Assembly: GCA_028695735.1 (NCBI GenBank)
Contig: JAQVIJ010000001.1
Location: forward strand, 237,081 to 301,080
Source of the DNA: Deltaproteobacteria bacterium
GTDB lineage: Bacteria > Desulfobacterota > Dissulfuribacteria > Dissulfuribacterales > DYLC01
DNA length: 64,000 bases
Reading direction: 5' to 3'
Below the pieces are notes generated by a model, which was given only the letters and a program-made list of their open reading frames with translations, was not told the DNA's origin and made no database searches. Positions 2,249-18,682 of this stretch are shown piece by piece (position 1 is the stretch's first letter; each line of letters starts with the position of its first letter). A program made the translations under genes and the position numbers.

Positions 2249-2635
2249 CTATCTATCTACAAACTCCACGAGAATATTATCAGGCCGCTGACTCAGGTTG
2301 GTAAGATTGACGGATGTCTCGAAATAGCCCTTTGTGCCATGGGCAAACGGTGCGCCGTTGTTCACAGAGGTCTCCACTGCCAAAACCACATCCCCACCCT
2401 TTTTGAGATAGATGATCACATACCCCTTGGCCAGGCTCTGGCTCTGGTTTTCCACATTACCGCTTACGGTCAAAATGGTCTTTTCCGAATGGGAGTATGC
2501 TGTGAGGTCCACTATGGCAAAACGAGGGGAGGCAAAGGTCATGGGTTGTTCCTGAACACCGGCTTCGCCCTGCAGAAAGACAAAAGGCACCACCACACAT
2601 ATAATACCAAGCAATAACAACACAATTTTACGCAT
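2249..2635 (-). CDS. Small exported protein of unknown function
   Basis: N-terminal hydrophobic signal MRKIVLLLLGIICVVVPFVFLQ; co-directional with the exported-protein run. Confidence 0.6.
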   Translation of the reverse strand: MRKIVLLLLGIICVVVPFVFLQGEAGVQEQPMTFASPRFAIVDLTAYSHSEKTILTVSGNVENQSQSLAKGYVIIYLKKGGDVVLAVETSVNNGAPFAHGTKGYFETSVNLTNLSQRPDNILVEFVDR

Positions 2636-2637
2636 AG

Positions 2638-3834
2638 TTATCTCCCCTTTCTGCCGGCCTTAAAAGCTGTACCATAGCTTGCCCTGATGGTATTGCCGTG
2701 GACCTCCTGAATTTTCAGACCTGGTATGGAGGTAAGCATTTCAGCAAGCCTTTGAGTGTTGCAATCCCGCCAGCCCACAAGCAACTCTGCCCTGTTTTGC
2801 AAAAAGCCCTTCTTGTTGACACGAAGGACTCCCCTGATCCCCGATATACTCGTTTGAAGGGCGCTAATTTCCTCAAAAGAGAGGCCATCCACCACCAAGG
2901 CCACCTCATGTTCATTATAACAGGCGTCCAACCAGACCTTGACCACCTTGGATGACAGGTCGTTGGCTATCTTTTTGGCCGCCTCTTGGGATGCCTTTAG
3001 TGCACCTTGCGCAAAACTGATATTGGGGACATTGGCGTCTGCAGAGGCAGTGGCCAGCATGCGGCCTGAGCCAGTCTCATAGAGCTTGGCAGTGAGGAAG
3101 GCGCCATAGGAATGGATACGAGGGTTATAGGGGGCAGGGCCGTTGTCCTGCATCACCAACTGACATGCCACCATGAGCTGCGCCAGATGGGATGCTGCCT
3201 CTACGGCCTGAGTCAGGGCGCTCGCACCCGATTGGGCGGCCAGGGCCACCTGACGCAGCCTCTCTGCCTCCAATGCAGATGGTTCTGCTATGCGAAAGCC
3301 CTTTTCACTTAGAATCTGAACTATGGTCTGCTCTGCTGCGCCCACATCCAGCTGTACACCGCCCATCTCGCTGGTCATGGCCTTTTGCGTCACTGTGACC
3401 ACCAGGGTGGGATAATTCATCCGGGGCAATACATGGGCCAAAGCAGTTATATCGTCCGCCAAGGCCGCCTCCTCCACCTCTGCCTGAATCACCACCTCGT
3501 AGTCTGTACCGGTTCGTCCCTCGGACAATATCTTGTAATTCTTCACATAACCTTGAACCTTGGTGAGTATCTTGTCCTGAATGACCACATAATTCTCCAC
3601 CAATGTCTCACTGGTGAGCATGGCGCCTATGGCCTGTTCCACGGCCTTTCGCATGGCATCGTTTAGGGCTGTGGTGCGGGCATCCGCCTCGCTTACGCCC
3701 TGAAGGCTGGCCATGCCTTTGGCCTGTACAGCGGCCCATGCCCCCCCTGAAAAGCAGAACAGCATTCCAAAGGCCAGAAGGGCCAAACATAACCTCATAG
3801 GATTAAAGGCAAACAGGGCTGTGCGGTTCATCAT
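2638..3834 (-). CDS. Exported FlgT-N/LPP20-like protein
   Basis: Signal peptide; motif AVEQAIGAMLTSETLVENYVVIQDKILTKVQGYVKNYKI shared with ORFs 6305-7672 and 11681-12427 and resembling FlgT N-terminal domains. Start taken at MMNR after AGAGG. Confidence 0.7.
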   Translation of the reverse strand: MMNRTALFAFNPMRLCLALLAFGMLFCFSGGAWAAVQAKGMASLQGVSEADARTTALNDAMRKAVEQAIGAMLTSETLVENYVVIQDKILTKVQGYVKNYKILSEGRTGTDYEVVIQAEVEEAALADDITALAHVLPRMNYPTLVVTVTQKAMTSEMGGVQLDVGAAEQTIVQILSEKGFRIAEPSALEAERLRQVALAAQSGASALTQAVEAASHLAQLMVACQLVMQDNGPAPYNPRIHSYGAFLTAKLYETGSGRMLATASADANVPNISFAQGALKASQEAAKKIANDLSSKVVKVWLDACYNEHEVALVVDGLSFEEISALQTSISGIRGVLRVNKKGFLQNRAELLVGWRDCNTQRLAEMLTSIPGLKIQEVHGNTIRASYGTAFKAGRKGR

Positions 3835-3845
3835 GTCTTCACCTC

Positions 3846-4484
3846 TCATTTCAGTCTGCGCAGCAACACCGCAACAGCGCTTCTAATGGCCCTGTTGGCG
3901 GCATCGCTCACATCTGCTCCAAATTCCACTGCGCTTCCAGGCACATACTCCAGGGTCTCCACATCCACACAACGCACCTGCACCCCCATGCGCACATGGG
4001 AGCTTCTTTGGGCGCTGAGGCCTGCCACTCGCTCTCCTCCCTCTGCATAGTCATAGACCTCGCCGTAAATCACCTTTTTCGCCCCTAACATGCGCCCCAT
4101 GGAGACGGCTGTAGCCTGGTCCACCATGCCTGCTGAACTCATCCACTGCCGGTCCATTATATCCTTGATGATCTCGGGCTTTTCCTCCACAAAGGTAAAA
4201 CGATTGCTGTCATACAGGGATTCCACCACCATGTTGTGAATACCCATACCCACGGACTTGTCCAGGAGGTGCGGGTAACGCTTGGCTGCCTGTTCAGAAA
4301 GGCCTAATGGAAGGACTGCCACAACTGTTTTGGGCCCGGTGTAGGTGGGCATGGGTGTGGCCTGAGTCAGGGGCTGCGTCTTGGAGGTGGAATCATCCTG
4401 TACATATGTGCCTGCGCAGCCGAAAAAAAGCCAGAGGCACATCATCATCGTTCCCAGTTCCAGTACTTTTTTTATGCCTTTCAT
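3846..4484 (-). CDS. CsgG-like lipoprotein
   Basis: Lipoprotein-type N-terminus (CLWLFFGCAG); TVVAVLPLG...DKSVGMGIHNMVVESLYDSNRFTFVEEKPEI...LGAKKVIYGEVYDY matches the CsgG/TolB-N-like pattern. RBS GGGAGGAAGG. Confidence 0.7.
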   Translation of the reverse strand: MKGIKKVLELGTMMMCLWLFFGCAGTYVQDDSTSKTQPLTQATPMPTYTGPKTVVAVLPLGLSEQAAKRYPHLLDKSVGMGIHNMVVESLYDSNRFTFVEEKPEIIKDIMDRQWMSSAGMVDQATAVSMGRMLGAKKVIYGEVYDYAEGGERVAGLSAQRSSHVRMGVQVRCVDVETLEYVPGSAVEFGADVSDAANRAIRSAVAVLLRRLK

Positions 4485-5380
4485 TCCCTTCCTCCCACTT
4501 TGCACAGGTTGGCCACCGCCTGTTTTACGGCCTTTTGAGTGGCCTGTCCCACTGTAGTCTCGTCAAAACAGATGCGATTGTCTCGAATCTGAAATAGGGC
4601 AGCAAGGGAGGTGGTAGTGGCCTCGCCCTTGGCCACGCCCCGATAGCATGCCCCATCCTTCTCTTCCACCAATACCTCTACCTCCAGCTCTATGGTGGTA
4701 GAGCCGCCGGATATGAAACCAATGGTGCGCACCCGCCGTGTCTTGAAGCCCCTTACAACTACCTTGGCCACGGCATCGCAACCAAAGCGTTCAAACACGG
4801 ACACAGGCTTGGCCTCAGGCACACCTGCCGCCTGTCCGGTATTTTCAGTATTTGATGTCTCTTCCTGCGGTTCCTTTTGGCCATCCTGCATCTTTTCCCC
4901 TTGAGAAGATTCATCTTGAGGCTTAACATCAGGGGATTTAGCGGCTTCGTCAGAAGACACCTGTGGTGAATTACCTTCCTGCACCTTGGCAACATCATTA
5001 GATGGCTGTGGCTTATTTTCAGGCACTTGAGCGACCCCAGCAGAAGCAGACCTCCCCGAAGTCCCTGCGTCAAATCCCTTGCCAAGCCAGCTCAAGGCCT
5101 GAAGCTCGTTTAATTCCTGAAGGACCTCAGGTTTTTCTTCAATGGGTGCGTAGTGTCCGGTATTATAGAGTTCAGTGGCCACCAGATTTGCAATGCCCAG
5201 GGCAATCAACTGATTGCGCCATTCAGGGCTTCCGGTCTCGTCGCGCACATCCACCACCACCAGGCGTTTTAAGCCAGGGGCAGTGTTTGATTCAGCATCT
5301 GCTGCCCATAGATATGGTGCAATCAGGCTGCTAAGACAACAGAAGAGGGTAACCCAAACCCAAAGACATATTCCCTTCAC
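4481..5380 (-). CDS. CsgG-like exported protein with a low-complexity insertion
   Basis: Signal peptide; RLVVVDVRDETGSPEWRNQLIALGIANLVATELYNTGHYAPIEEKPEVLQEL parallels the neighbouring CsgG-like ORF; C-terminal half resumes after a Glu/Ser/Pro/Lys/Gln-rich stretch. Confidence 0.6.
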   Translation of the reverse strand: MKGICLWVWVTLFCCLSSLIAPYLWAADAESNTAPGLKRLVVVDVRDETGSPEWRNQLIALGIANLVATELYNTGHYAPIEEKPEVLQELNELQALSWLGKGFDAGTSGRSASAGVAQVPENKPQPSNDVAKVQEGNSPQVSSDEAAKSPDVKPQDESSQGEKMQDGQKEPQEETSNTENTGQAAGVPEAKPVSVFERFGCDAVAKVVVRGFKTRRVRTIGFISGGSTTIELEVEVLVEEKDGACYRGVAKGEATTTSLAALFQIRDNRICFDETTVGQATQKAVKQAVANLCKVGGRE

Positions 5381-5479
5381 AACGACCTGCCTCTCAAATG
5401 GTATATCAGGGGGGAGACCCTGGTTTATACTCGGTCTCCCCGGTCATTTGACACATCAACATTCCCTCTAACATCACGG

Positions 5480-6241
5480 TTATTTGTGTCTAGCATCTAT
5501 CTCAGCCACGCACTTCTGCACCAGTCTTTGCACCATGGTGTCCAGCGTCACGGTCTTCTGCTGGGATTGAGAGATGCCGAGCACACTGGTGGAGCCGGCA
5601 TTCAACTCCATCTTGTCCTCGAAGTAACCGGTGGCCACCTGTTCACTGGTATTGGCATTCAATATCTTGTAGCGCATGCCGATGATCCACACGCCGGCGG
5701 CATCTTCAGTCCGTACAGAGGAGACGGCTGTGTCTGTAACAGCACCACCACGGCCACCCATCAGGGTCCCTGCAATGGAACCCAATGCAGCGCCATTAAA
5801 GCCCTTTGTGGCCTGAGCCACAGGCTCGGCCTTCAGGATGTCAAATTTCACGAACCACTGAGTGGACTGGAACTTACCCTTTTTGAACTTCTTAAGGGCA
5901 TTGGGGTCTCCCATGTTAACAGCCAGTTTGATCTCGTCCAGCATGGGCCCCAGGTCAGACCTTTCCAATATCTTGAAATTGGCCTTGCTCAATTCCAGCT
6001 CAGCATAATCAGCCACATTGTTGCTGCTCACCTTCTGCGTAAAGGTGGCGTTGTTACTCTTGATCTCACCGGGTATGACCACCAATTGCGGGCCAGGTTT
6101 TGAGGCATTGACATAAGAAATCGGTTGATACATCATCTGGTCGGCCTGCTGGTTGGCCGTCTCAGAGGCCGATTGCTGCGGTGGCACACAGCCTGACAAT
6201 AACAGCGCAAGACAAATCCCCAAAAAACCCATTCGTTTCAT
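5480..6241 (-). CDS. CsgG-like lipoprotein
   Basis: Lipobox LLLSGC; AELELSKANFKILERSDLGPMLDEIKLA and later YKILNANTSEQVATGYFEDKM are CsgG-like. Confidence 0.65.
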   Translation of the reverse strand: MKRMGFLGICLALLLSGCVPPQQSASETANQQADQMMYQPISYVNASKPGPQLVVIPGEIKSNNATFTQKVSSNNVADYAELELSKANFKILERSDLGPMLDEIKLAVNMGDPNALKKFKKGKFQSTQWFVKFDILKAEPVAQATKGFNGAALGSIAGTLMGGRGGAVTDTAVSSVRTEDAAGVWIIGMRYKILNANTSEQVATGYFEDKMELNAGSTSVLGISQSQQKTVTLDTMVQRLVQKCVAEIDARHK

Positions 6242-6304
6242 AACCTTTCTCCTTATTATTAGAATCTTGAGCCCATGAGGCCCAATTTAATACCTGAGGA
6301 TATA

Positions 6305-7672
6305 TCAAAAATTCTTTACAGCCTCTCTTCCTGCACTCGACACGGCTGGAGTGGTGGTGGACAACTGGGCTGTCATGGCCTCCACCTTCTTTTTGGTCTC
6401 CGGGCTCTTTGCCACCTCCTTCAGACGCTCCGGGCTGGCCTGCACAAGGGAGGCGGGAGGCATCTCCTCCATGGCCTTCAGAAGCTCCTGCTTGCCCTTG
6501 CCTGCGTAGGCTATCTCTATCACATCTCCATGGGATGCCGTGAGCCGAAAGGCATTGGCGCCCACCTTGGCATTGAGTGGCTTGAGAATGCCTTCATTTA
6601 CCACTGTGTTAAAATTGCCGCGCAGTCCAGCAAACTCAATCTCGAAAAGAGAGGGGCCGTTGGCCTGAAAATTCCTGAAATCAACATTTAATATGTTCCG
6701 AAGCCCAATAAACTCCTTTTTGAACAGCTCCGCTGTGTCATAGTCAGGCAGCCCTGTGAGTTTGAGCTGATATATGCGGCTTGGCTGCTGAAGATGGTCT
6801 GCAAAGAAGTCCCTGGAGAACTCAGAGCCTATCATTTTGCCGATCTCCTCAACGGCTGCGTCCTCGGAATTCCAGCTCTTTTTCTGTGGGACCTTGTTGT
6901 TGAAGTATATCTCCTCTCCTGTATGTGTATTCACACACTTGACGCTCCAGGAGGTCAGGACAAACTTTTCGATGCGCACACCTGATGCAGGGAGCACATG
7001 ACTCAATCGCTGAAACTTTGCCTCTCCCTCGATGAGAAAATCAGACTGTTTGTCTTTGGAGTTGGTATCATCAGACCAGACCGTATAGCCAAAACCCTTT
7101 ATGTGTTCCTTCAGGACATTCTCTGCAACGCTTGAGCGTTCCTTGATATTGTCTGAACTCCTCTCAGCATCCTTCACAAATATCCGTACAGCAATCTTTG
7201 GATTGCCCTGCTCCTTGATTATGGATATACGCCGTTCTTTGGACAGATCCTGAATTGCGCTTTTGACATCACCTATATACACCTCAGCCTTCATCAGAAT
7301 GTGCATGAATCCGTCTTTACCTAACCAAGGCTCGCTTTCCTTTATGATTTCCTTGATCAGGCCCTGACTTTTTGACAACACCCTGTCATTAATGACTGTG
7401 TAATTCTCAACGAGCGTAGAACTATCCACATATACACCAACCGCCTTTTCTATAATCTGACGCCTTGCATCCTTTCTGAGATCGTCTATCATCAATCCTT
7501 TATCTTTTTTGTAAATCTCTGCGTTTGCATCCACCAAACCCTCAGCTGACACTATAATGGTTTTAGCAGATTCCTTTTCCTTTTGCTTCTGATTGTTTCC
7601 AGTTGCCGCAAGACTGGAACATGCTATCAAACACATAATGAGCAATAAAATTGATTGAATGCGTATTCTCAT
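6305..7672 (-). CDS. Exported FlgT-N/LPP20-like protein
   Basis: Signal peptide MRIRIQSILLLIMCLIACSSLA; RRQIIEKAVGVYVDSSTLVENYTVINDRVLSKSQGLIKE, same motif as the 2638-3834 protein. Internal ATG used as start. Confidence 0.7.
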   Translation of the reverse strand: MRIRIQSILLLIMCLIACSSLAATGNNQKQKEKESAKTIIVSAEGLVDANAEIYKKDKGLMIDDLRKDARRQIIEKAVGVYVDSSTLVENYTVINDRVLSKSQGLIKEIIKESEPWLGKDGFMHILMKAEVYIGDVKSAIQDLSKERRISIIKEQGNPKIAVRIFVKDAERSSDNIKERSSVAENVLKEHIKGFGYTVWSDDTNSKDKQSDFLIEGEAKFQRLSHVLPASGVRIEKFVLTSWSVKCVNTHTGEEIYFNNKVPQKKSWNSEDAAVEEIGKMIGSEFSRDFFADHLQQPSRIYQLKLTGLPDYDTAELFKKEFIGLRNILNVDFRNFQANGPSLFEIEFAGLRGNFNTVVNEGILKPLNAKVGANAFRLTASHGDVIEIAYAGKGKQELLKAMEEMPPASLVQASPERLKEVAKSPETKKKVEAMTAQLSTTTPAVSSAGREAVKNF

Positions 7673-7673
7673 A

Positions 7674-8363
7674 TCATTTCCTCTTTTTAGGGCTGGCCCT
7701 CGTGGGCTCGGGCTGACGGCAGTAGTCATGATATAATTTGGCCACGACCTCATCGGCCTTTTCATTGACGAGTTTCAGGGCGGTACCCACCACATCGCTT
7801 CCTGAATAGGATTCAGATGAGGTGGTGACGGTAGAGAGAATGCGTCCGGAGGCATCCGACAGGGTAAAGGTCATGGTGACCGCCACCTCCTTGACACCGA
7901 TGACAGGATTGACGCCCGTGTGGGCCACAATAACGCCCTTCAGAAGGAAGTTGGCGGCAAGCCTGCGCGCCGCTGTGATGGCGGCATCGGGATCTCCGCC
8001 AAGATAGGCCTCTATCTCGGCCTGGGCTATCTGTTTTTTGATCTGTTCTGGAGTATAGGTCTTGAGCCCAAGGGCACGGAGACGATTGTTGATGGCATCG
8101 AAAAACAGGCCGTAGTTGGACTGATCAGCGCGCATACGGCCACTGGCCTGTTCACCTATCATGATGCCGATCTTTTGATCCTTTAATTTAGACCGGCATG
8201 GTACACTGGTCAGCCATTGAATATGTGCAGCCCGCGCCTCCTCCTGCCCGCGTTCACTATCCTCGGCCTCAGAAAAGGAAAAGGCGTAAGCGGCCACAGG
8301 CAGGAACAGCGCACAAAAAACGATCCATCCAATCCATTTTTGGCTCAATGCACAACCCCCCAC
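7674..8363 (-). CDS. Exported protein, possible CsgG/FlgT-type ABD fold
   Basis: Signal peptide; KIGIMIGEQASGRMRADQSNYGLFFDAINNRLRALGLKTYTPEQIKKQI; co-directional in the cluster. Family assignment weak. Confidence 0.5.
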   Translation of the reverse strand: MGGCALSQKWIGWIVFCALFLPVAAYAFSFSEAEDSERGQEEARAAHIQWLTSVPCRSKLKDQKIGIMIGEQASGRMRADQSNYGLFFDAINNRLRALGLKTYTPEQIKKQIAQAEIEAYLGGDPDAAITAARRLAANFLLKGVIVAHTGVNPVIGVKEVAVTMTFTLSDASGRILSTVTTSSESYSGSDVVGTALKLVNEKADEVVAKLYHDYCRQPEPTRASPKKRK

Positions 8364-8466
8364 TCTCTTAAAAATCTCTTAAAAAATAGAATCAGACTTA
8401 CAGCAGACCCTGGCAATCTCCCTTGGAAAGCTTCCCTCTTGTTGCCCGATGCACAAGAAATCGTCC

Positions 8467-9393
8467 CTATTTCATCATCACAACCGAATTGACATTTGAA
8501 GTCTTTTTGCCTGCCGCTACGTTGGTTATATCCTCCGAACTGGAGACATTCGTAACCGATCTGACCTGTACATTCTCCAGGTCAACACTCCCCACATTGG
8601 CGTTTCCACCAGCAGCCGCCACGTTGACGACGTTTTTTACATCTGCCACATTGGTTACTGAACCCACCGCTGCATTCTTGAGGTTTACACTGCCCAAATT
8701 AGCTGTGGAATCGGCACCAATGGCCACGTTCGTACTGCGCTGCACATTGGCCACATTGGTGACCGAGCCGCTTACAGAAGACCCTTGAATATTGGTGGAG
8801 CCCACATTGGCTACCGCCCTGCTGCCTGCCGCTATGTTGGTTACCCCCTGTATGTTGGCCCTGTTGGTTACACTGCCTCCCACAGAGGAGTTTTGTATGT
8901 TGGTGGAGCCCATATTGGCCACAGCCCCCTGGCCCATGACAATGTTCTGAGAATTCCTCACATCGGCTATATTGGTAACACTACCTTTAACGGAAGAGCC
9001 CTCTATATTGGTGGAGGCCACGTTGGCGGTACTGCCTGCACCAGCGGCTATATTGGTAACACCGCGCACATTGGCCTTATTGGTGACCTTGCCCTTGACC
9101 TGAGAGGAACCTATGTTGATGGAACCGAGATTGGCCTTGGTCCCCTGGCCCATGGCAATGTTCTGGGCATTTTTAAGGTCCGCAATGTTGGTCACATCAC
9201 CCTTTACAGAAGAAGCCGCAATGCCTACGGAGGCAGCCTTGGCCACATTACCGGCGCCGCCTGCCGCTGCATTGGTAACATCCGCCACAACCGCCTGATT
9301 GGTTATATCGCCTGAACCGGTCTCTGCAGCGAATGCAGCAATACTCACACTCAAAGACACAATGCCAATCAGAATCAAGACATTAAACTTCAT
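8467..9393 (-). CDS. Exported 36-residue-repeat protein (candidate beta-solenoid/amyloid-like)
   Basis: Signal peptide MKFNVLILIGIVSLSVSIAAFA; recurring unit SSVKGSVTNxADVxxxxNIAxGxxxxANxGSxNIx. RBS GGAGG before the ATG at 9393. Confidence 0.8.
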   Translation of the reverse strand: MKFNVLILIGIVSLSVSIAAFAAETGSGDITNQAVVADVTNAAAGGAGNVAKAASVGIAASSVKGDVTNIADLKNAQNIAMGQGTKANLGSINIGSSQVKGKVTNKANVRGVTNIAAGAGSTANVASTNIEGSSVKGSVTNIADVRNSQNIVMGQGAVANMGSTNIQNSSVGGSVTNRANIQGVTNIAAGSRAVANVGSTNIQGSSVSGSVTNVANVQRSTNVAIGADSTANLGSVNLKNAAVGSVTNVADVKNVVNVAAAGGNANVGSVDLENVQVRSVTNVSSSEDITNVAAGKKTSNVNSVVMMK

Positions 9394-9440
9394 ATATAAC
9401 ACCTCCGCACACAGTCCCTGCGACACCAAGAATCATTGCA

Positions 9441-11021
9441 TTATTTATCCGATAGATCCGACGACCTATCGGAAAGTATCTTGTAACGCCGCAGGATATC
9501 AGGCCCTCTTCTGGATGCCTGCTCCCTATCAAGAATCAATCTATGCCCCTTACTGTCTTCGAACACATGAAATGCGCCCTTGTTGTTTTCTATCGCAGCT
9601 ATTACATCATTCAAATTACCTACATTGACTCCATTTACTGAGACAATAACTCCATCTAAGTATGTATGGTAACCTATATTGACATCATCAGCCAAAACTT
9701 TAGCCAGAATCACCACCTGCTTAAGCTTTTCAGATGGTTCACCATTTTCATAATAATTCAATAATTCAACCGGTGAATTTATGCGCCAATTGTCTTCATC
9801 TCCATATTCCTTCAGATAATTCAGAACAAGTGGAGTAAACACCAAACCTCCATATATATAATAAGTCGGCATATGGTCATACTGCATATTCGGCACGAGC
9901 CTTTCCATGCCTATGGCCTTGGTAAGAAGAATCGTAAAATGCTTCCTCTCACCATTGCGAACTATATCCACATTTACAGTATCCCCGATATGCTTCTGTT
10001 GCCAGATATATCCCAAAAAGGTCCTTTCGCCACGCCGGAACTCCACTGTGCCGTCCTCTTCAACAGCATATCCATCCAGCGCCACCACCACATCATCCTG
10101 AAAAATCAAACCCTCGGCAGGTGAATCAGGGAAAACCTTATTGACCAATGCGCCTGTTTCGCCAGGTTTCAGCCCAAAACGCTGTAAAAGGGCGGGATTT
10201 TCCATTTTTTGCATCTTGAGACCCAGCTCAGGGGTGCCGTGAAAGACCCCGTCCTTTTCAATATCTTGTAAAAAATGCTTAACGATGGAAGCCGGTATGA
10301 TGTATCCCACATTTTCAAATCCACGCTTCAGCATACCCTGGAATGCGACACCCACTACCTCATCACCCTTCAAAACAGGCCCGCCGCTGTTTCCGATATT
10401 GATAGAGGCATCGATCTGGCAGGCCAGCAGATATGCGCCGCTATGATTATAAACGATATGCTCTATGCGCGAGACCACTCCTTGAGTGATTCCCAAGCGG
10501 TCACCTCCCGCAGGGAAACCATACACCCCCACCTCATCACGAATTTCAGGCAGACTGCCTATGCGCAGCGGCACAATACCCTTAAAAAAATCTTCATCCT
10601 CAACCCTGAGCAATGCGAGGTCGGTTTCATGGGCTACATGTTCCACTCTGGCGGTATATTTGCGGGCCTGACCTGATTTTCGCACCTGCACAAAGGTCTG
10701 CCATGCAACTACATGGGCATTGGTCAGAATACGGTTGCCCTCTATAATGAAACCAGAGCCCTGCATGGATTGTTGCCCCTGCATCTGCCATGGTTCATGA
10801 AAATTTGCAGGGTTATAGGTGGAATAGACCTTTACGACGGCATCTTTTATGCTTTGAGCCTTGTCAAGGCTCAGACCTGTGGCCGCACAGGCATTTCCTG
10901 ACAGGCAGGCCGAAACCGGCAACAGCAATAGGACAATGGTGACGGCCGCAACGGCCCGAAGCATGCCCATACAGGCCACCGGCATACAGACAACCACCCT
11001 AAGAAAGAGGCTCGATATCAC
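9441..11021 (-). CDS. Exported trypsin-like serine protease with PDZ-like region (HtrA/DegP-like)
   Basis: Catalytic motifs TNAHVV (His), ETDLALLRV (Asp), GNSGGP (Ser); PDZ-like segments after the protease domain; N-terminal hydrophobic segment. Confidence 0.85.
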   Translation of the reverse strand: MISSLFLRVVVCMPVACMGMLRAVAAVTIVLLLLPVSACLSGNACAATGLSLDKAQSIKDAVVKVYSTYNPANFHEPWQMQGQQSMQGSGFIIEGNRILTNAHVVAWQTFVQVRKSGQARKYTARVEHVAHETDLALLRVEDEDFFKGIVPLRIGSLPEIRDEVGVYGFPAGGDRLGITQGVVSRIEHIVYNHSGAYLLACQIDASINIGNSGGPVLKGDEVVGVAFQGMLKRGFENVGYIIPASIVKHFLQDIEKDGVFHGTPELGLKMQKMENPALLQRFGLKPGETGALVNKVFPDSPAEGLIFQDDVVVALDGYAVEEDGTVEFRRGERTFLGYIWQQKHIGDTVNVDIVRNGERKHFTILLTKAIGMERLVPNMQYDHMPTYYIYGGLVFTPLVLNYLKEYGDEDNWRINSPVELLNYYENGEPSEKLKQVVILAKVLADDVNIGYHTYLDGVIVSVNGVNVGNLNDVIAAIENNKGAFHVFEDSKGHRLILDREQASRRGPDILRRYKILSDRSSDLSDK

Positions 11022-11715
11022 CGACGCCGGAAATCTTCTTTATTATCTTGGGGTTACCCCTGTATTGCACGGTCCCAGCCCCATCTACGGTGACATCCAG
11101 AAGTTTCACGGCGTGCACCACCGCCTCTCCAGCGCCGGTCATTTTAATGAATACATCATCAGCCCTAAGCCCCTCAGCCTTCACATCACCCGCACCCTTC
11201 ATATCTATCTGCAACCTTTGAACCCCACCTGAGAGGAAAACCGTACTGCTTCCGTCCATATCAAGGGTCAGATTATCCTTCAGGCCCTTCACATCAATAT
11301 CATTTGAACCATCCACCCTCAGCCTGTCCAGATGGACCATGGAAACCTTTACGGTCATGGGCGCACTTGTGCAGACTGAACGCCTTGTTCGAATGTAAAG
11401 GGTATCACCATCCACCTTGGTCTGAATATGAGGCACAATGTTCTCATCTGCTTCGATGGTAAGAGAAGGGGCGGACCCCGCCAGGATCTTTATATCGAAG
11501 GCCCCATCCGCCTGAATTTTAGAGACCGTTGAAGACATATCCCTTTTCTCTACCCTGGATACACCATTTCCCTCCACACAATTATTGCCTTGAATCACCA
11601 CAGCCATTCCATGAAATGGGAAAATCAAAAAACAAAGCAGGCAAAACGCGGTACAAAATACCCGTACCCCGTAATTCCCTTTATTTCTTCTGTTTGGATT
11701 TGCCGAAGTCATCAT
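10999..11715 (-). CDS. DUF2807 / head-GIN domain exported protein
   Basis: VSKIQADGAFDIKILAGSAPSLTIEADENIVPHIQTKVDGDTLYI...VDGSNDIDVKG...GAGDVKAEG pattern typical of GIN-domain autotransporter-adhesin-like proteins. Confidence 0.8.
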   Translation of the reverse strand: MMTSANPNRRNKGNYGVRVFCTAFCLLCFLIFPFHGMAVVIQGNNCVEGNGVSRVEKRDMSSTVSKIQADGAFDIKILAGSAPSLTIEADENIVPHIQTKVDGDTLYIRTRRSVCTSAPMTVKVSMVHLDRLRVDGSNDIDVKGLKDNLTLDMDGSSTVFLSGGVQRLQIDMKGAGDVKAEGLRADDVFIKMTGAGEAVVHAVKLLDVTVDGAGTVQYRGNPKIIKKISGVGDIEPLS

Positions 11716-12427
11716 CCTGGGCCCCCAAACCTTCAACTTCTATCATATCAGTATCCGACACGATCTTCTGACCCAACATATCCGACACATCACGCACATT
11801 CAAAACCATCTTGATGTAGGCATCGCCATTGGACTCCCATCCGAATTCTGTAATTTCAGCCAGAAAGAGTGTGGCCATAACCTTGGTGCGCACCACATCG
11901 GACTTTAACATATAATTTTCCACAGATGTCTCGCTCTCCAACTGGAACCCCACCAGCTGCTTCATAAGCTGCTTGTAGGCATCGATCTCAGCTGCACGCA
12001 ATGCCTTGAGAGGGCCTGCCTTTGATGGCGTGGATGTGCCGAAACCAACTCGTCTGAAGACCTTGTTGTTCAAGGGAATGACATCACCATTGACATTGGT
12101 TATCTGATCCAATGAAACACTGGCAACCGCCTTGGCGATATCCTGCTTGGGATCGTATGTAATCTCTTCGAATTTCACCCCTTTGAGCATGGCAGCGGTC
12201 TTGGACTCGGTCTTGCCCTCAAAATTTGCAGCCACCAGGTCCCTTACCTCTTCGGTAGCCCGCAATTTCAAACCATAGACGGTTTCCACCAGGGCACGTT
12301 CAGCGGTGACGCGAGCGGCATTGATGCTCATGATGCGGTTATTGCCGGCAACAGCCAGATTGGATACACATAACGCTGCTAACACCATCGCAATACTTAA
12401 GATCTTATGGGGAAATGATTGGCGCAT
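11681..12427 (-). CDS. Exported LPP20/FlgT-like protein
   Basis: Signal peptide; MKQLVGFQLESETSVENYMLKSDVVRTKVMATLFLAEI shares the G-x(6)-ET-VENY motif with two other ORFs in the cluster. Confidence 0.65.
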   Translation of the reverse strand: MRQSFPHKILSIAMVLAALCVSNLAVAGNNRIMSINAARVTAERALVETVYGLKLRATEEVRDLVAANFEGKTESKTAAMLKGVKFEEITYDPKQDIAKAVASVSLDQITNVNGDVIPLNNKVFRRVGFGTSTPSKAGPLKALRAAEIDAYKQLMKQLVGFQLESETSVENYMLKSDVVRTKVMATLFLAEITEFGWESNGDAYIKMVLNVRDVSDMLGQKIVSDTDMIEVEGLGAQDDDFGKSKQKK

Positions 12428-12950
12428 GGAGTTCCTCCTCTCTTATTGGAGTGGCAATCTGCCACCTGGATTTGTCATGATTAGTTAAAACGTAACGGCT
12501 TCCCAACCCGATGGACTCGTTTTTTACTTCTATCAAGCCTTGGGCCTGTATGTGAAATACGGGCCCAATGTCTTGCAGTTCTTCCCTTTTTTTTTCATAT
12601 CTTGTGGCCGTCTTTTTCTTTTGTGTGCCTGCTATATGGGCAGTTTTTCCCTTTATAGCAGGCTGTGATTGTGATATGTGGGGCAAGCGGATTGCTCCGC
12701 TGCCCTGCCTGACCTCCTGTTCAGTCACTCGAACCTCCGCCACTCCGTTTACATATCGCACATCTCCTTTGACGGAGATATGCCCGTCTTTGGGAACGGC
12801 TACCTGCGACAACGCCTTTGCGTTCAAGTCATTTAATTCCTTCACGGAATTATCGACCATAACCCTGTTCCCTGCATAAGCGGCCACAGACACAGAAAGG
12901 AACATGGCTGAGACCAAGAGTTGCACCGAATGTCTTTGAAAGATTTTCAT
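12405..12950 (-). CDS. Exported protein of unknown function
   Basis: Signal peptide MKIFQRHSVQLLVSAMFLSVSVAAYA; overlaps the next gene start; no recognised domain. Confidence 0.55.
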   Translation of the reverse strand: MKIFQRHSVQLLVSAMFLSVSVAAYAGNRVMVDNSVKELNDLNAKALSQVAVPKDGHISVKGDVRYVNGVAEVRVTEQEVRQGSGAIRLPHISQSQPAIKGKTAHIAGTQKKKTATRYEKKREELQDIGPVFHIQAQGLIEVKNESIGLGSRYVLTNHDKSRWQIATPIREEELHAPIISP

Positions 12951-12956
12951 GTCAGT

Positions 12957-14360
12957 TTACCAATCTGAATCACTCAGTATTCGGCCAATGGCCCTTGTAC
13001 TCTGAGTAGTAGGCCTTGCAGAGGCCGGCTGGGGCGCTGGAGCTGCCGCAACCGAAGCCTGGCGAGGCGCAGGCTGAGAAGCCGCCTTTGGAGCCGCTTG
13101 CATAGTGGTTTTGGGAGCAGATGCCTGTGGAGCTGGCGCTGCCTGAGGGGCAACTGCTACAGGTTGCTGTTGCGGAGCTGGCGCTGCAGGGGCAGGCTGA
13201 GGGGCTGCCTGTGCCTGTGGCACCACATCAGGCATCACCGCAGGACCACCCGCAGGTGCCTGACCGCCCGCAAGCATCAGTCTTCTTGCATAGGCGTTAT
13301 TGTCTATGGGAATAGTCATGTAGATCTTTGTCGCTGTCTCAACATCTATGGAGGGCCCGGCATTGGGGTTGAAGGTCCGCAGGGCATTCAATGTCCTTTG
13401 GTCCATAACGCCGTTCACTGGGACATCGTGACCATGCAGGAACAGCCATTCCTGCACCGCAGCTATGCGGTCCGGTTCAGACATCCTATAAAAACTCTTG
13501 GCGAATGCGGTCATAACCACATCATCCGGTAAGGCGTCATCGCCGAGCAGCCTCCAGTAAGGCAGCACCAAATGCTTGCCCACAATCTGTATCATACTGG
13601 CCTCCACCAGCAGACGGACGGCTGCATGGCGCCCCTGCACCTTTTTGATTGAACCCTTTCTGCCGAAGGATGCCCCGAAAAGTGTAATACCCAACTCCTT
13701 CTCCGCCATGGCCTTGTGTACCTCAATGCTGTTGGTGGTGTTCATTCGAGGGATACCTGCCATTGTTTTGAAATTAACAAGATTGAAATCCAACGTGATG
13801 CGTGAAAGCCCTGTTTTGTCCTCGTCTCTGTAATCAAATCCAACCTTGCTGGAAAGGTGCTTGGACACGTTAAAATCCGCCTCCATGCTGGCGTCATTGC
13901 CCTTACCCCTTGTTTCAAGCCCCCTGTCAAATTCAGTGATGCCACCAGTTACCACCACATCAGGAATCATCTTTGCATCAAAACTGGAGTATCCTGTCAC
14001 CATATTATTTTGTATAAAGGCAGGGTCATAGGGGATGTATATGACGTTTCCTCCAATGGCATTGAGGGAACTCTTGATCATCTCCGTGATATCACGGGGG
14101 ATCTCTCCACCAGTAGAACCAGAAGTGCCGGTATTGTCGCCGATGGGGTTGGCTTGTATCTTGAGCGCTCCGGTCCCGTATATCTCGGACATCAATCCCA
14201 GGTCCGAGAGGGCCTTGGTATAGGAAGTAACCTTTACCTGCGGCCCTGTCTCAGGCAGCTGGACATCCACCTTGGCAGGGTCTTCACATGACGCCAATAA
14301 AAAAAATGCGGCCAACACCAGCAATGGCCAACCTTTTCTCCCCTTGTTGGAATATATCAT
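12957..14360 (-). CDS. CsgG-like lipoprotein with peptidoglycan-binding-like segment and Ala/Pro/Gln-rich tail
   Basis: Lipobox FLLASC; CsgG-like body (IPDVVVTGGITEFDRG...ITLDFNLVNFKTMAGIPRMNTTNSIEVHK); AAVQEWLFLHGHDVPVNGVMDQRTLNALRTF resembles PG_binding_1; low-complexity C-terminus. Confidence 0.7.
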   Translation of the reverse strand: MIYSNKGRKGWPLLVLAAFFLLASCEDPAKVDVQLPETGPQVKVTSYTKALSDLGLMSEIYGTGALKIQANPIGDNTGTSGSTGGEIPRDITEMIKSSLNAIGGNVIYIPYDPAFIQNNMVTGYSSFDAKMIPDVVVTGGITEFDRGLETRGKGNDASMEADFNVSKHLSSKVGFDYRDEDKTGLSRITLDFNLVNFKTMAGIPRMNTTNSIEVHKAMAEKELGITLFGASFGRKGSIKKVQGRHAAVRLLVEASMIQIVGKHLVLPYWRLLGDDALPDDVVMTAFAKSFYRMSEPDRIAAVQEWLFLHGHDVPVNGVMDQRTLNALRTFNPNAGPSIDVETATKIYMTIPIDNNAYARRLMLAGGQAPAGGPAVMPDVVPQAQAAPQPAPAAPAPQQQPVAVAPQAAPAPQASAPKTTMQAAPKAASQPAPRQASVAAAPAPQPASARPTTQSTRAIGRILSDSDW

Positions 14361-14391
14361 AACGTCCCTCTCATTTTTTTGAGTCTTATAT

Positions 14392-14730
14392 TTATCTGTC
14401 TGTTACTACAGTTTTTTTGCCATGTCCTTCATCTATGATGTAGATATCTCTAATTTTTGAGCCAGCACCCACCAGGACGCTGTTTATATTGCCGCCCGTA
14501 GCTGCTGTTGCTGTATCTGTAGCGCTGGCCTTGCTGCCCCCACCTCCACTGGCAGCCGCCTTTGCCTTCATCTTTATGAAACTGATATTCTTTTCACTTT
14601 GGAATACCTGATCGCTTTTACTGATGGAGTCATCTGTATATTTGGAGATACCATCATCCATGTCATCCGCCATAGCAATGGATGCCCCAGCCAGAAAACA
14701 TAACCCTATTACTAACCAAAATACCTTCAT
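14392..14730 (-). CDS. Small exported Ala/Gly/Thr-rich protein
   Basis: Signal peptide MKVFWLVIGLCFLAGASIAMA; low-complexity AAASGGGGSKASATDTATAATGG core. Internal ATG at 14730 preferred over the ORF start. Confidence 0.6.
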   Translation of the reverse strand: MKVFWLVIGLCFLAGASIAMADDMDDGISKYTDDSISKSDQVFQSEKNISFIKMKAKAAASGGGGSKASATDTATAATGGNINSVLVGAGSKIRDIYIIDEGHGKKTVVTDR

Positions 14731-14816
14731 GTCAGGCTCCTGAAAGATATATATTAGGTAAGGGACAATATGCCCCTTACCTAATTCCATTACTGAAGCT
14801 TAATTCTCACACAAGC

Positions 14817-15644
14817 CTACTTTATGTCAACAGAGGCCATATCCGCTGTATTGCCAATACCCATAGCGACATTGGTTGCACCCTTGACATTGGCTTGATT
14901 GGTCACAGTGCCTTTTACATTGGAATTCTCGATATCCACCGAGCCCATGTTGGCCTTGTTGGCAATACCCATGGCAACATTGGTCGAACCCTTGATATCA
15001 GCCTTGTTGCTCACTGTGCCCTTAACATTGGATTTCTCGATGTCCACCGAGCCCATGTTGGCCTTGTTGGCAATACCCATGGCAACGTTGGTCGAACCCT
15101 TGATATCAGCCTTGTTGCTCACTGTGCCCTTGACATTGGATTCCTCTATGTTAACCGAGCCCATGTTGGCCTTGTTGGCAATGCCCATGGCAACGTTGGT
15201 CGAACCCTTGATGTTGGCCTGATTGCTCACTGTACCCTTGACATTGGATTTCTCGATATCTACCGAGCCCATGTTGGCCTTGTTGGCGATACCCATGGCG
15301 ACATTGGTCGAACCCTTGATATCAGCCTTGTTGCTAACTGTGCCTTTTACATTGGACTTCGCGATATCTACCGAGCCCATGTTGGCCTTGTTGGCAATAC
15401 CCATGGCAACGTTGGTCGAACCCTTGATGTTGGCCTGATTGCTCACCGTGCCCTTGACCTTAGAATCCTCAATGCCTACAGAGCCAACCCTCGCTTCATT
15501 GGCGATGCCCATGGCGACGTTGGTTGTGCCCGCCACATCCGCCTTGTTGCTCACCGTACCCTTCACATCAGATGCTGCAAAGGCCATGGAGGAACTTACC
15601 AAAAGAGCTGCCAAAACAAGAATCATTTTACCTTTCATTTTCAT
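14817..15644 (-). CDS. Exported 36-residue-repeat protein, 7 near-identical units
   Basis: Signal peptide then 7 units of NVKGTVSN(K/Q)A(D/N)IKGSTNVAMGIANKANMGSVDIE(K/N)S; paralogous to the 8467-9393 protein. Confidence 0.85.
   Translation of the reverse strand: MKMKGKMILVLAALLVSSSMAFAASDVKGTVSNKADVAGTTNVAMGIANEARVGSVGIEDSKVKGTVSNQANIKGSTNVAMGIANKANMGSVDIAKSNVKGTVSNKADIKGSTNVAMGIANKANMGSVDIEKSNVKGTVSNQANIKGSTNVAMGIANKANMGSVNIEESNVKGTVSNKADIKGSTNVAMGIANKANMGSVDIEKSNVKGTVSNKADIKGSTNVAMGIANKANMGSVDIENSNVKGTVTNQANVKGATNVAMGIGNTADMASVDIK
14820..15569 (-). repeat. Tandem 108-bp repeats (about 7 copies) inside the repeat-protein gene
   Basis: 108-nt units recur with high identity (e.g. ttggccttgttggcaatacccatggcaac[a/g]ttggtcgaacccttgat); encodes the 36-aa repeat. 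Confidence 0.9.
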
Positions 15645-16061: not shown

Positions 16062-16859
16062 ATGAACATGCTGACCATCCTCAAAAGAAAAAGTGAAGCC
16101 CTTCAGCTGGCCAACACCCCGTTTCTTCATCTGCTACAGGAATTGATGGTAACAGGGCGACACCCTGCCATATGGCAACAGACAGCACGTGACCTGCTTT
16201 ACAAAATCATCGGCCACATAGCCATCGAAGAAGGCATGAAGGCCTTCAGCTCACGGGAAGACGAAGAAAAACTCAAAGAACATCTGCCCTATGCCATCTC
16301 AAACGCCCTGGACGAACTATCCCACAAGACACTCGGGCTCGCCAACACCAGAATGGATCCCGCTACGCAAACGACCGTCCTGTTTCTGTTCTTCAAGATT
16401 GTCGAATGGTTTGGGCAGAACTACAACAACCTATGTATTTACGGAGAAAAACCGGATGATGAGGGGTACAGGATGTATCAGACATGCAGAAACAAGGTGG
16501 ATATCGTAGCCGAAAAGGATGAAGTATGGCTTGAAATGGACGCCATTTGTAGAGAATGCGGCTACCCAGGACTTCTGGAAAACTCGATTTACGGCTGCAA
16601 GACATACTCGGCACAGGCGCTGTTGAGTATTCCATACAATCTCTTTTTTGAAAAAACAGTCCTCCAACCTGCGCCGGGAACAAGACAAGATCTGAAAACT
16701 AACCTCCTGGTCACCGCGTTCACCAAAACAGCGGACATCACATCAGTAGGAATTCGCTGCGACCAGCCGGAAAAGGATACACTCAACCATAACATCTATT
16801 CCACATTAGAGAAAAACATCCTGCGCTTTCTGAGAAAAAAACTCGAGGGTGCGGCCTAA
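16062..16859 (+). CDS. Hypothetical protein
   Basis: 265-aa ORF, plausible RBS (AGCGGAG), intrinsic terminator right after the stop; no recognised domain. Confidence 0.6.
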   Translation: MNMLTILKRKSEALQLANTPFLHLLQELMVTGRHPAIWQQTARDLLYKIIGHIAIEEGMKAFSSREDEEKLKEHLPYAISNALDELSHKTLGLANTRMDPATQTTVLFLFFKIVEWFGQNYNNLCIYGEKPDDEGYRMYQTCRNKVDIVAEKDEVWLEMDAICRECGYPGLLENSIYGCKTYSAQALLSIPYNLFFEKTVLQPAPGTRQDLKTNLLVTAFTKTADITSVGIRCDQPEKDTLNHNIYSTLEKNILRFLRKKLEGAA

Positions 16860-16928: not shown

Positions 16929-17345
16929 TCAGACACAGCCCTCACAAGAAACCTTGCAAGGGGTATCTGTGTCCTGCAAAGAGGACATCTTCTCGAACTT
17001 GGCCTTGCAATTCTGACGCACCTCACAAGGACAATTGGCGATTTCCCAGCATGGCACCAGACATAAAAGGCGTTTCAAACCCGGCATACTTATGCCCTCA
17101 TCATGTATCATGGAGCGCAGACAGGCGATCCAATCCATATCATTTTGTGAAAACAACCTTCTTGGCCCCACATACGAAGGCTTTATGAACCCCTCGGCCT
17201 CGTACAGCCGAAGGGTTCGAGGGTGTACATTCAGTATTCGGGCAGCCACTCCAATTGGATATATGGGCGTAGATGGGTCAGGAGTCGAGCCGCGGACTCG
17301 ACTGGCTGTATCGGATTTAGATATGTCTCGTTCTCGTGGCTTCAT
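16929..17345 (-). CDS. MerR-family transcriptional regulator with Cys-rich C-terminus
   Basis: IYPIGVAARILNVHPRTLRLYEAEGFIKPSYVGPRRLFSQNDMDWI is a MerR HTH; C-terminal CWEIANCPCEVRQNC...CKVSCEGCV. Confidence 0.85.
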   Translation of the reverse strand: MKPRERDISKSDTASRVRGSTPDPSTPIYPIGVAARILNVHPRTLRLYEAEGFIKPSYVGPRRLFSQNDMDWIACLRSMIHDEGISMPGLKRLLCLVPCWEIANCPCEVRQNCKAKFEKMSSLQDTDTPCKVSCEGCV

Positions 17346-17432: not shown

Positions 17433-18623
17433 TTAATGGGACTCGGACACATGGCCTCTGAAGAACTTTTCTCCAATCAAGAAGGCCATTGCGCATAAGC
17501 TAAGACCACTCAATGTAACCATGACCTCATGCAGAGAAGGAGAGTATGAGAAATAATGAGGAATACCAACCAGATCCCCTAACTCATGGAAGTGAGGGAC
17601 TATCTGGCCTACGACTACTAAGTCGTAGCGCATTACAAAGATACCGGTCATGCAAAGGGCGCCGGCTATAAACATGGCCTTCATATCCTTGGCCTTTACC
17701 AGAGAGATGATGGCAAACGGCAGGAGCATGCCCAGCAGGACCTCGCCACCCCAGAAATTCAGGGCGTAGTCGCCGGTCAAAATCGCCTTCATCGCCTCGA
17801 ACTTTCCTGGAGGTTCCCCAGCCACGCCCGAAAGCACCTTCCATGTGGTAAAGAACATTATGATGACCATCAACAGTGCGCCGAGCTTGCCAGTGGCGGA
17901 CAGGGCATTCTTCATGGAATCACTCATCTGCCAGCCGTTGGCCTTATAGGCAAGCCATGTAAAGAACAAAATGGCAGCACAACCGGACATCATGGCGGAG
18001 GTTATGAAATAAATGGGCATATATGGGCCGTGCCAGAATTCCCTTGCACCGAGAAGGCCAAAAACCGCACCGAGATTGCTGTGCGCCGCCACACCGGCTA
18101 CAACCCCCATCAGACCAAACATGGCAGCCTGTTTGTGCCTGCCGACCTGCAACAAGGCGAACTCAATGAGCATGAAGAAGAGATATGCGCCGTACAGGGT
18201 GCCCATCCACCAGATATTAGATGTGAGATTCGGGGTCAGCACATTGTAGATAGCCATACGCCAAGGGCTTTCGATCTCAAAGGCTATCACCATAAAACCG
18301 CTTATAATGGTAGCGATGGCCAGGAAGACAGAGCGTTTTGCGATGGGCATGAAGGTTTCATTGCCAAAGACGTGACCTATAGATGAAACAAGACACAAAC
18401 CGGTGGACGTAACGACGAAGAAGACATAAGTAGAGATAAGAAGGCCCCACGGCACTTCACGAGTAACTCCGTAGGTCTGTTCATGACCTGCGAAAAAGGC
18501 ATGAATACCAAAGGCCACCCCGACCGCAGTCAAAAAACCAAAAAATGCAATGGCTGCGTTGTAAGACTTGGACGCTGTGGAAACCAAACCACCTTCTAAT
18601 ACCCCTGTTTTTACCTCGGACAT
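17433..18623 (-). CDS. NrfD/PsrC-family polytopic membrane protein (quinone-interacting subunit)
   Basis: Multiple TM segments with NrfD-type pattern (GLLISTYVFFVVTSTGLCLVSSIGHVFG). Start MSEVKTG with RBS AAAGGAGG. Confidence 0.8.
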   Translation of the reverse strand: MSEVKTGVLEGGLVSTASKSYNAAIAFFGFLTAVGVAFGIHAFFAGHEQTYGVTREVPWGLLISTYVFFVVTSTGLCLVSSIGHVFGNETFMPIAKRSVFLAIATIISGFMVIAFEIESPWRMAIYNVLTPNLTSNIWWMGTLYGAYLFFMLIEFALLQVGRHKQAAMFGLMGVVAGVAAHSNLGAVFGLLGAREFWHGPYMPIYFITSAMMSGCAAILFFTWLAYKANGWQMSDSMKNALSATGKLGALLMVIIMFFTTWKVLSGVAGEPPGKFEAMKAILTGDYALNFWGGEVLLGMLLPFAIISLVKAKDMKAMFIAGALCMTGIFVMRYDLVVVGQIVPHFHELGDLVGIPHYFSYSPSLHEVMVTLSGLSLCAMAFLIGEKFFRGHVSESH

Positions 18624-18682
18624 AACAAACATCCTCCTTTAATAAATAGATAGAATAGACTTTAGACGGAAAAACGAACTAC

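Follow-up and report, generated by a model that had tools for sequence, protein, structure and literature searches.

Gene organisation and distribution of the locus

The window analysed here, a 64,000-nucleotide stretch of contig JAQVIJ010000001.1 from a Deltaproteobacteria bacterium (genome of 2.22 Mb in 9 contigs), carries at positions 2249-15644 a putative secretion locus of 15 open reading frames (ORFs), all on the minus strand and separated by small gaps or overlapping. The gene order, as read, is REP-1, DDG, PORE, P12, F11, GIN, HtrA, REP-2, C7, FlgT-like, C5, C4, short CsgG-like, FlgT-like and X1; the short names REP, DDG, PORE, P12, F11, C7, C5, C4 and X1 were coined in this analysis. 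A preliminary description of this DNA had the tight arrangement right and put the gene count at about 13. Its statement that nearly all products carry signal peptides or lipoboxes agrees with a simple heuristic, which places a hydrophobic N-terminal stretch in 15/15 ORFs.

The locus is best read as a core of three genes, with FlgT-like and additional CsgG-like genes as accessories. REP-1 (14817..15644) encodes a secreted protein of 275 aa built from 36-aa repeats and is the proposed main cargo. DDG (14392..14730, start corrected from 14790) encodes a small secreted protein with a D-L-D-D-G-I motif and usually lies directly 5' of PORE; its C-terminal end resembles, by eye, one partial rung of the repeat protein. 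PORE (12957..14360) encodes a lipoprotein with a predicted CsgG fold.

A scan of GTDB contigs returned 62 loci encoding PORE relatives. This set was drawn with two peptide patterns and is therefore biased to close relatives; the loci are also related by descent, so the counts are not independent trials. Three relatives are 51-65% identical to the PORE of the window. By record title, which may be wrong for metagenome bins, 20 loci belong to Desulfobulbus, Desulfobulbaceae or Desulfobulbales, 7 are Desulfobacter-type, 6 Desulfuromonas-type (with Geomonas), 7 unspecified delta, 7 Nitrospira-type, 7 gammaproteobacterial or Methylococcaceae, 1 Sulfurospirillaceae and 7 unspecific. The cultured Methylotuvimicrobium buryatense is among them.

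Counting plus-strand matches at E<=1e-12 only, REP is present in 54/62 PORE loci; a wider tally of REP matches includes some minus-strand shadow ORFs. Where 1 kb or more of sequence precedes PORE, REP falls within 1.5 kb on that upstream side in 49/57 loci and DDG is immediately upstream in 48/57. The linkage of repeat genes to a CsgG homologue, which the preliminary description had named as a check on its proposal of a CsgG-type system dedicated to such proteins, is thus found in other genomes as well. REP is encoded elsewhere in the locus in four cases (L034, L039, L047, L068). Among the eight loci without REP, the flank where REP would be expected is short in four (L014, L019, L061, L073), L046 ends 33 bases after PORE, and L062 encodes two repeat proteins by eye; L023 and L040 are true exceptions in the sequence examined. 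The smallest arrangement is seen in L087, where REP-DDG-PORE stands alone between unrelated genes.

Across 247 genomes of the phylum, PORE occurs in 5, counting the source genome, and each of the 3 with REP is one of these; the other two PORE genomes, with no REP profile match, encode by eye short proteins with two 33-37-aa repeats beside a distant PORE. A set of 60 genomes selected as relatives shows patchy presence too, with PORE in 4, the source included. Two genomes (L085, L086) have a distant PORE subfamily accompanied by short proteins of two repeats, with ABC-transporter-like genes downstream. A contig titled Sulfurospirillaceae (L015) holds much of the window locus, including a PORE of 59% identity and a REP-C7-FlgT-C5 cassette; recent transfer or a mis-binned contig is possible.

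The repeat proteins and the PORE lipoprotein

Both repeat proteins in the window have the 36-residue period originally described, with identities at lag 36 of 82% and 36%. The second, REP-2 (8467..9393, start corrected from 9429), is the more diverged. Over 101 REP sequences, which include a few shadow ORFs, the best lag is 36 in 47, 35 in 18, 38 in 14, 37 in 9, 39 in 8 and another value in 5; units measure 35-40 aa and proteins reach 1453 aa. In 234 units of length 36, aligned in a register that an anchor pattern imposed at positions 1-6, Gly15, Asn28 and Gly32 are conserved at ~100% and Asn19 at 99%. Aromatic residues, Cys and Pro are nearly absent.

The AlphaFold2 model of REP-1 is all-beta, with five strands to every 36 residues; its mean predicted local distance difference test score (pLDDT) is 93.1, rising to ~95 or above in the repeats. 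Structure comparison by VIA returned right-handed beta-helix proteins, for example an autotransporter passenger (Z 15.8, 186 residues, 3.2 A). From the aligned lengths, REP is predicted to place one 36-residue unit in each rung of a beta-solenoid. Very short REP proteins of 98-172 aa, with two or three units by eye, occur in Methylococcaceae-type loci (L063-L067, L075), sometimes as two or three tandem gene copies. Pfam and NCBIfam matches of REP proteins (Adap_comp_sub, Arg_tRNA_synt_N, pentapeptide and others) were inconsistent between members and were set aside as repeat artefacts. A phage origin was likewise rejected, REP-1 having no match in 50,697 phage records, as was a plasmid source, where only distant DUF4384 proteins were found, in Azospirillum and Deinococcus.

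The lipobox cysteine of PORE, Cys25, is invariant in 36/36 proteins. An AlphaFold2 model (36 rows, mean pLDDT 76.5) shows four long strands within residues 135-241, a confident helical, peptidoglycan-binding-like domain (~268-365), a disordered linker and a disordered C-terminal tail bearing G-R-x-L-x-x-x-x-W. In Foldseek against the PDB, CsgG-family chains fill ranks 1-24 (best E 1.3e-9, probability 1.00), followed by weaker matches to HpaA- and FlgT-type proteins, and VIA gives Z 13.8. TM-scores were modest, at 0.27 on the query, in part owing to its extra domains. PORE is thus predicted to adopt the CsgG fold, as the preliminary description had suggested for this ORF. Its profile found as best solved match a peptidoglycan-binding protein (E 0.036).

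PORE was compared with HfaB from Pseudomonadota genomes and with CsgG proteins encoded near CsgE- and CsgF-like genes. By hhalign, PORE scored 97.1% with HfaB (E 7.4e-11) and 22.4% with CsgG (E 9.4e-4), and HfaB scored 99.5% with CsgG (E 4.3e-23). In a tree of 54 rows, a branch with 99/96 support parts HfaB and CsgG from PORE and its distant relatives; the program warned that long branches meet here, which makes the exact split less sure than the support values. Because HfaB and CsgG group together apart from PORE, PORE is best read as a clade of its own, a third lineage belonging to neither family. The HfaB model NF037935 (cut-off 300 bits) matches 3/36 PORE proteins at E<=0.01, the best at 1.3e-4 and far under 300 bits.

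A C-terminal tail of the G-[RK]-x-L-x-x-x-x-W type is present in 35/60 complete PORE proteins, a set without proteins of up to 300 aa and without incomplete ends. With a FlgT-family match counted anywhere in the locus, tail and FlgT-family gene occur together in 34, the tail alone in 1 (L046, whose contig ends 33 bases on), the gene alone in 2 (L017, L022) and neither in 23. The coincidence suggests that F11, the FlgT-like protein encoded near PORE, may dock on this tail; as the loci share descent, the Fisher value for it does not stand for independent trials.

The post-REP hairpin, accessory genes and genomic setting

The gap between REP-1 and DDG contains a predicted RNA hairpin with a 15-pair stem (14753..14785, minus strand; z -5.9), and a hairpin recurs at this position in many loci: 32 of 47 REP-DDG gaps, the window included, have one at z<=-2.0. 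In fixed 100-base stretches after stop codons, hairpins with a folding energy (dG) <=-20 and z<=-3 follow REP in 41/87 cases, DDG in 0/55 and PORE in 0/60; the same threshold gives 1/19 after P12, 7/38 after F11 and 2/25 after GIN. Two REP genes are present in 11 Desulfobulbus-type loci; there, no hairpin at this threshold is seen in the last gap, and z<=-3 is reached after the first REP gene in 9/11. Only 7/64 strong hairpins have a T run (at least 5 T in the 9-base tail), so the element is unlikely in general to be an intrinsic terminator. It may instead protect or stabilise the mRNA, or serve as a processing element, raising cargo over pore; a hairpin after REP and not after DDG or PORE is what an excess of cargo would call for. 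No Rfam family was matched in the window.

Downstream of PORE lie P12 (12405..12950), encoding a secreted accessory protein and found immediately 3' of PORE in many loci, and F11 (11681..12427), encoding a FlgT-N/LPP20-like periplasmic accessory protein. The GIN-domain (DUF2807) protein (10999..11736; Pfam E 1.1e-33) and the HtrA/Deg-like serine protease with PDZ domains (9441..11021) were both recognised at the outset and are borne out by Pfam. Where at least 1.5 kb downstream of PORE is available, F11 is present in 33/57 loci and GIN in 26/57; HtrA occurs in 11/62 PORE loci. In three loci with P12-like matches at 19-21 kb (L025, L029, L035), an N-terminal P12-type segment is fused, by eye, to a SPOR-type-like repeat domain, hinting at septal or wall binding.

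The remaining genes include two further FlgT-N/LPP20-like proteins, one at 6305..7765 (iterated profile; NCBIfam LipL46 E 2.1e-7, under cut-off) and one at 2638..3849, which passes the Pfam FlgT_N model (PF16548, 30.3 bits, cut-off 28.8). Iterated profiles started from these two and from F11 converge on the same 42 proteins, so the three ORFs said to share a motif do form one family. The claim of four CsgG-like proteins fared less evenly. The short CsgG/LpoB-like lipoprotein (3846..4484) matches PF03783 at 33.8 bits (cut-off 20.8), and PORE joins it by fold; C4 (4481..5380) is probably a divergent relative by profile comparison only (E 2.1e-7 against the 3846 family profile; hhalign 79.8% over 46 columns). 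For the lipoprotein C5 (5480..6241), CsgG-likeness is not established (PF03783 E 0.046), and its single homologue is in L015. C7 (7674..8363) is an accessory-cassette protein with a sub-threshold likeness to LpoB (E 0.072), and X1 (2249..2635), a small secreted protein of no family, recurs near PORE in 18/62 loci. All of these genes are on the minus strand. Lipobox patterns match in the ORFs listed at 5480, 6305, 9441 and 12957; 7674 also matches at its very N-terminus, though not as a signal, and 3846 has by eye a lipobox-like F-G-C. The start of the 3846 ORF is probably 4484 rather than 4505; this correction and those for DDG and REP-2, likewise probable, come from the ORF reading.

Several of these genes recur elsewhere as cassettes: REP-C7-FlgT-C5 in L015, and C4-CsgG-FlgT in L033 and L072. 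FlgT-like genes thus tend to be accompanied by genes for CsgG-like proteins or lipoproteins. A FlgT-family gene is present in only 36/62 PORE loci, the cassettes come and go, and C5 is not shown to be CsgG-like; the original picture of one assembly with four CsgG-like proteins and FlgT-like rings at its core is therefore not upheld.

The flanks encode a NiFe hydrogenase small subunit with a twin-arginine translocation (TAT)-like signal and an NrfD-type membrane protein (800-1930 and 17433-18632), which sets the locus among energy-metabolism genes. Upstream of REP-1 are a divergent ORF without Pfam match and a MerR-family regulator (16062-16859 and 16929-17345), and local control of the locus by these is possible. 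A candidate promoter at 15929-15902 was discarded as evidence, the scan having found 14 sites against 16.1 expected.

Interpretation and comparison with known systems

The locus probably adds a third export and anchoring lineage to the CsgG superfamily, next to those of curli CsgG and holdfast HfaB. Export through PORE, a solenoid fibre at the surface, anchoring to the wall and a cap or adaptor role for DDG are what we infer from the gene set and the models. REP and DDG would reach the periplasm via their signal peptides, and lipidated PORE would oligomerise into an outer-membrane channel, as CsgG does, with its C-terminal domain tethering the channel to peptidoglycan. Unfolded REP would then cross the channel and fold outside as stacked beta rungs of 35-40 residues, giving an adhesive or matrix fibre. 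DDG may act as cap, nucleator or adaptor linking fibre to pore, in the position of HfaA or CsgB/F. The post-REP hairpin would keep cargo mRNA above pore mRNA. F11 is probably a periplasmic collar docked on the W tail at the PORE C-terminus, and the HtrA and GIN proteins may provide quality control and surface accessories. Tentatively, and with more doubt than confidence, this can be extended to a third independent secretion family: a peptidoglycan-clamped channel whose surface fibres are one-repeat-per-rung solenoids, from 2 units to dozens in length, where the C-terminal W peptide recruits a FlgT-like collar and cargo excess is set by a hairpin, not a second promoter.

Several observations weigh against this interpretation. 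Export, pore and fibre are predictions from genes and modelled structures. PORE falls under the Pfam CsgG threshold (18.2 bits, cut-off 20.8), and only 4/36 members have a CsgG match at E 0.01. Pfam recognises PG_binding_1 in 9/36, and other members end differently, in DUF4384 (4/36) or, by eye, in a TPR-like domain (L087). The link between tail and F11 is confounded by clade, and shared ancestry could give the same pattern. The REP-1 model has no significant Foldseek match (best E 0.012), and confident solenoid models are common for repeat proteins, so that extracellular folding stays a prediction. DDG has no recognisable relation to HfaA or to REP units (hhalign 2.9% and 2.8%, a small profile being a weak test). 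The system is also rare, at 5/247 genomes of the phylum.

The strongest alternative, which we nevertheless judge unlikely, is a holdfast-type anchor like HfaABD, in which the exported proteins form no fibre of their own and instead fasten to the cell an exopolysaccharide that is made separately. PORE is closer to HfaB than to CsgG by hhalign, a small secreted protein is encoded directly 5' of the pore gene in both systems, and hfa loci too contain a larger repeat-rich secreted protein; however, PORE lies outside the HfaB clade, and homology is undetectable between DDG and HfaA and between REP and HfaD (0.1%), small or repeat-rich profiles being weak tests. No polysaccharide genes were noted beside the core in the locus maps, where no systematic search was made. 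An improbable reading makes PORE a periplasmic lipoprotein scaffold of LpoB/PelC type and leaves the repeat proteins unexported, as spacers in the periplasm that bridge outer membrane and wall. Its peptidoglycan-binding-like domain would fit, as would the related fold that VIA finds in PelC, TolB and other non-channel lipoproteins, but the long paired strands of the model (135-241) resemble CsgG barrel strands, which LpoB/PelC-type folds are not known to have, and REP at up to 1453 aa is oversize for a spacer.

FlgT_N was the only flagellar-type domain that Pfam recognised in 2249-15644. The source genome carries a FlgI (P-ring) gene on contig C5, from which the organism is probably flagellated. 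A further CsgG-family protein (57.9 bits) is encoded on contig C8 (L012, 40899-42431) beside genes that look by eye like fliL, fliO and fliP, and the flagellar CsgG/FlgO-type role seems to be filled there. That the locus encodes rings of the outer membrane akin to the FlgO/FlgP/FlgT set of Vibrio flagella, with the repeat proteins as passengers, has in its favour three FlgT-like proteins, the P-ring gene and the FlgT structures among the weaker PORE matches, but is very improbable given a core that occurs without FlgT-like genes, best PORE matches to CsgG, and flagellar genes on contigs C5 and (by eye) C8.

If the proposed export and anchoring lineage is real, Desulfobulbus-, Desulfuromonas- and Nitrospira-type bacteria and methanotrophs would have a dedicated surface fibre or anchor. 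The recurring gene set is carried by sulfur, iron and methane bacteria, environmentally important groups, and has no name among present Pfam and NCBIfam models. A literature search of partial coverage, which is not proof, found no paper on a REP-DDG-PORE module and two described CsgG-type export systems, curli and Hfa. The three-gene core within one genome makes the system testable in a small construct, and long regular solenoids are of interest as protein material.

Curli are the first point of comparison. The likeness consists in a CsgG-fold pore with a lipobox and a secreted repeat cargo predicted to form a beta-solenoid, and the REP unit contains a G-x-G-N-x-A-like piece similar to the curlin motif. 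Curlin units measure ~22 aa, whereas REP units span 35-40 aa, and PORE carries an extra domain. Models for CsgE and CsgF, which recover control curli loci, gave 0 matches at E<=10 in the ORFs of 66 sources (the 62 loci, three further regions and the window up to 20 kb; the search with these two did not extend to the remainder of the genome). The curlin repeat PF07012 is not among the Pfam matches of 13 REP proteins, its best genome-wide score being 12.2 bits against a cut-off of 20.7. Curli proper is rejected on these grounds, in keeping with the preliminary description, which had recognised no canonical csgA, csgB, csgE or csgF. As far as the available part of Dueholm 2012 (PMC3521004) goes, Deltaproteobacteria have a single curli system.

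The functional amyloid Fap may share with REP one long repeat per layer (seen in FapC, predicted for REP) and five short strands per repeat, according to the accessible part of PMC12392863. The REP unit N-V-A-I-G-x-G-N-x-A-N-M lines up by eye with the FapC logo N-psi-a-a-G-x-g-N-q-Q-N-psi in the same source, but the pore here is CsgG-type and that of Fap is FapF. Against solved structures the REP profile gave two chance-level matches at E<=10, no FapC chain among them, and in Foldseek the REP-1 model reached FapC at rank 20 (E 0.15, TM 0.08). The likeness to the Greek-key repeats of FapC is one seen by eye without profile support, and serves as a lead. The Vibrio T/H ring of FlgT, FlgO and FlgP shares the FlgT_N domain of the 2638 ORF; it differs in that REP-DDG-PORE is found in loci lacking FlgT-like genes and shows no linkage to the flagellum.

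Membership in HfaABD itself is rejected, given the score far under the NF037935 cut-off, a homology that is only distant and the separate clade; the system is retained as an analogy. PORE differs from HfaB in its peptidoglycan-binding-like, DUF4384 or TPR-like end, and REP is distinguished by regular 35-40-aa units. In Caulobacter, HfaB is reported, in the available part of PMC6707917, to be necessary for HfaA and HfaD at the surface. With a CsgG-type lipoprotein, a small secreted protein gene just 5' of it and a larger repeat-rich secreted protein in the same operon or loci, HfaABD is the closest working model for this locus.

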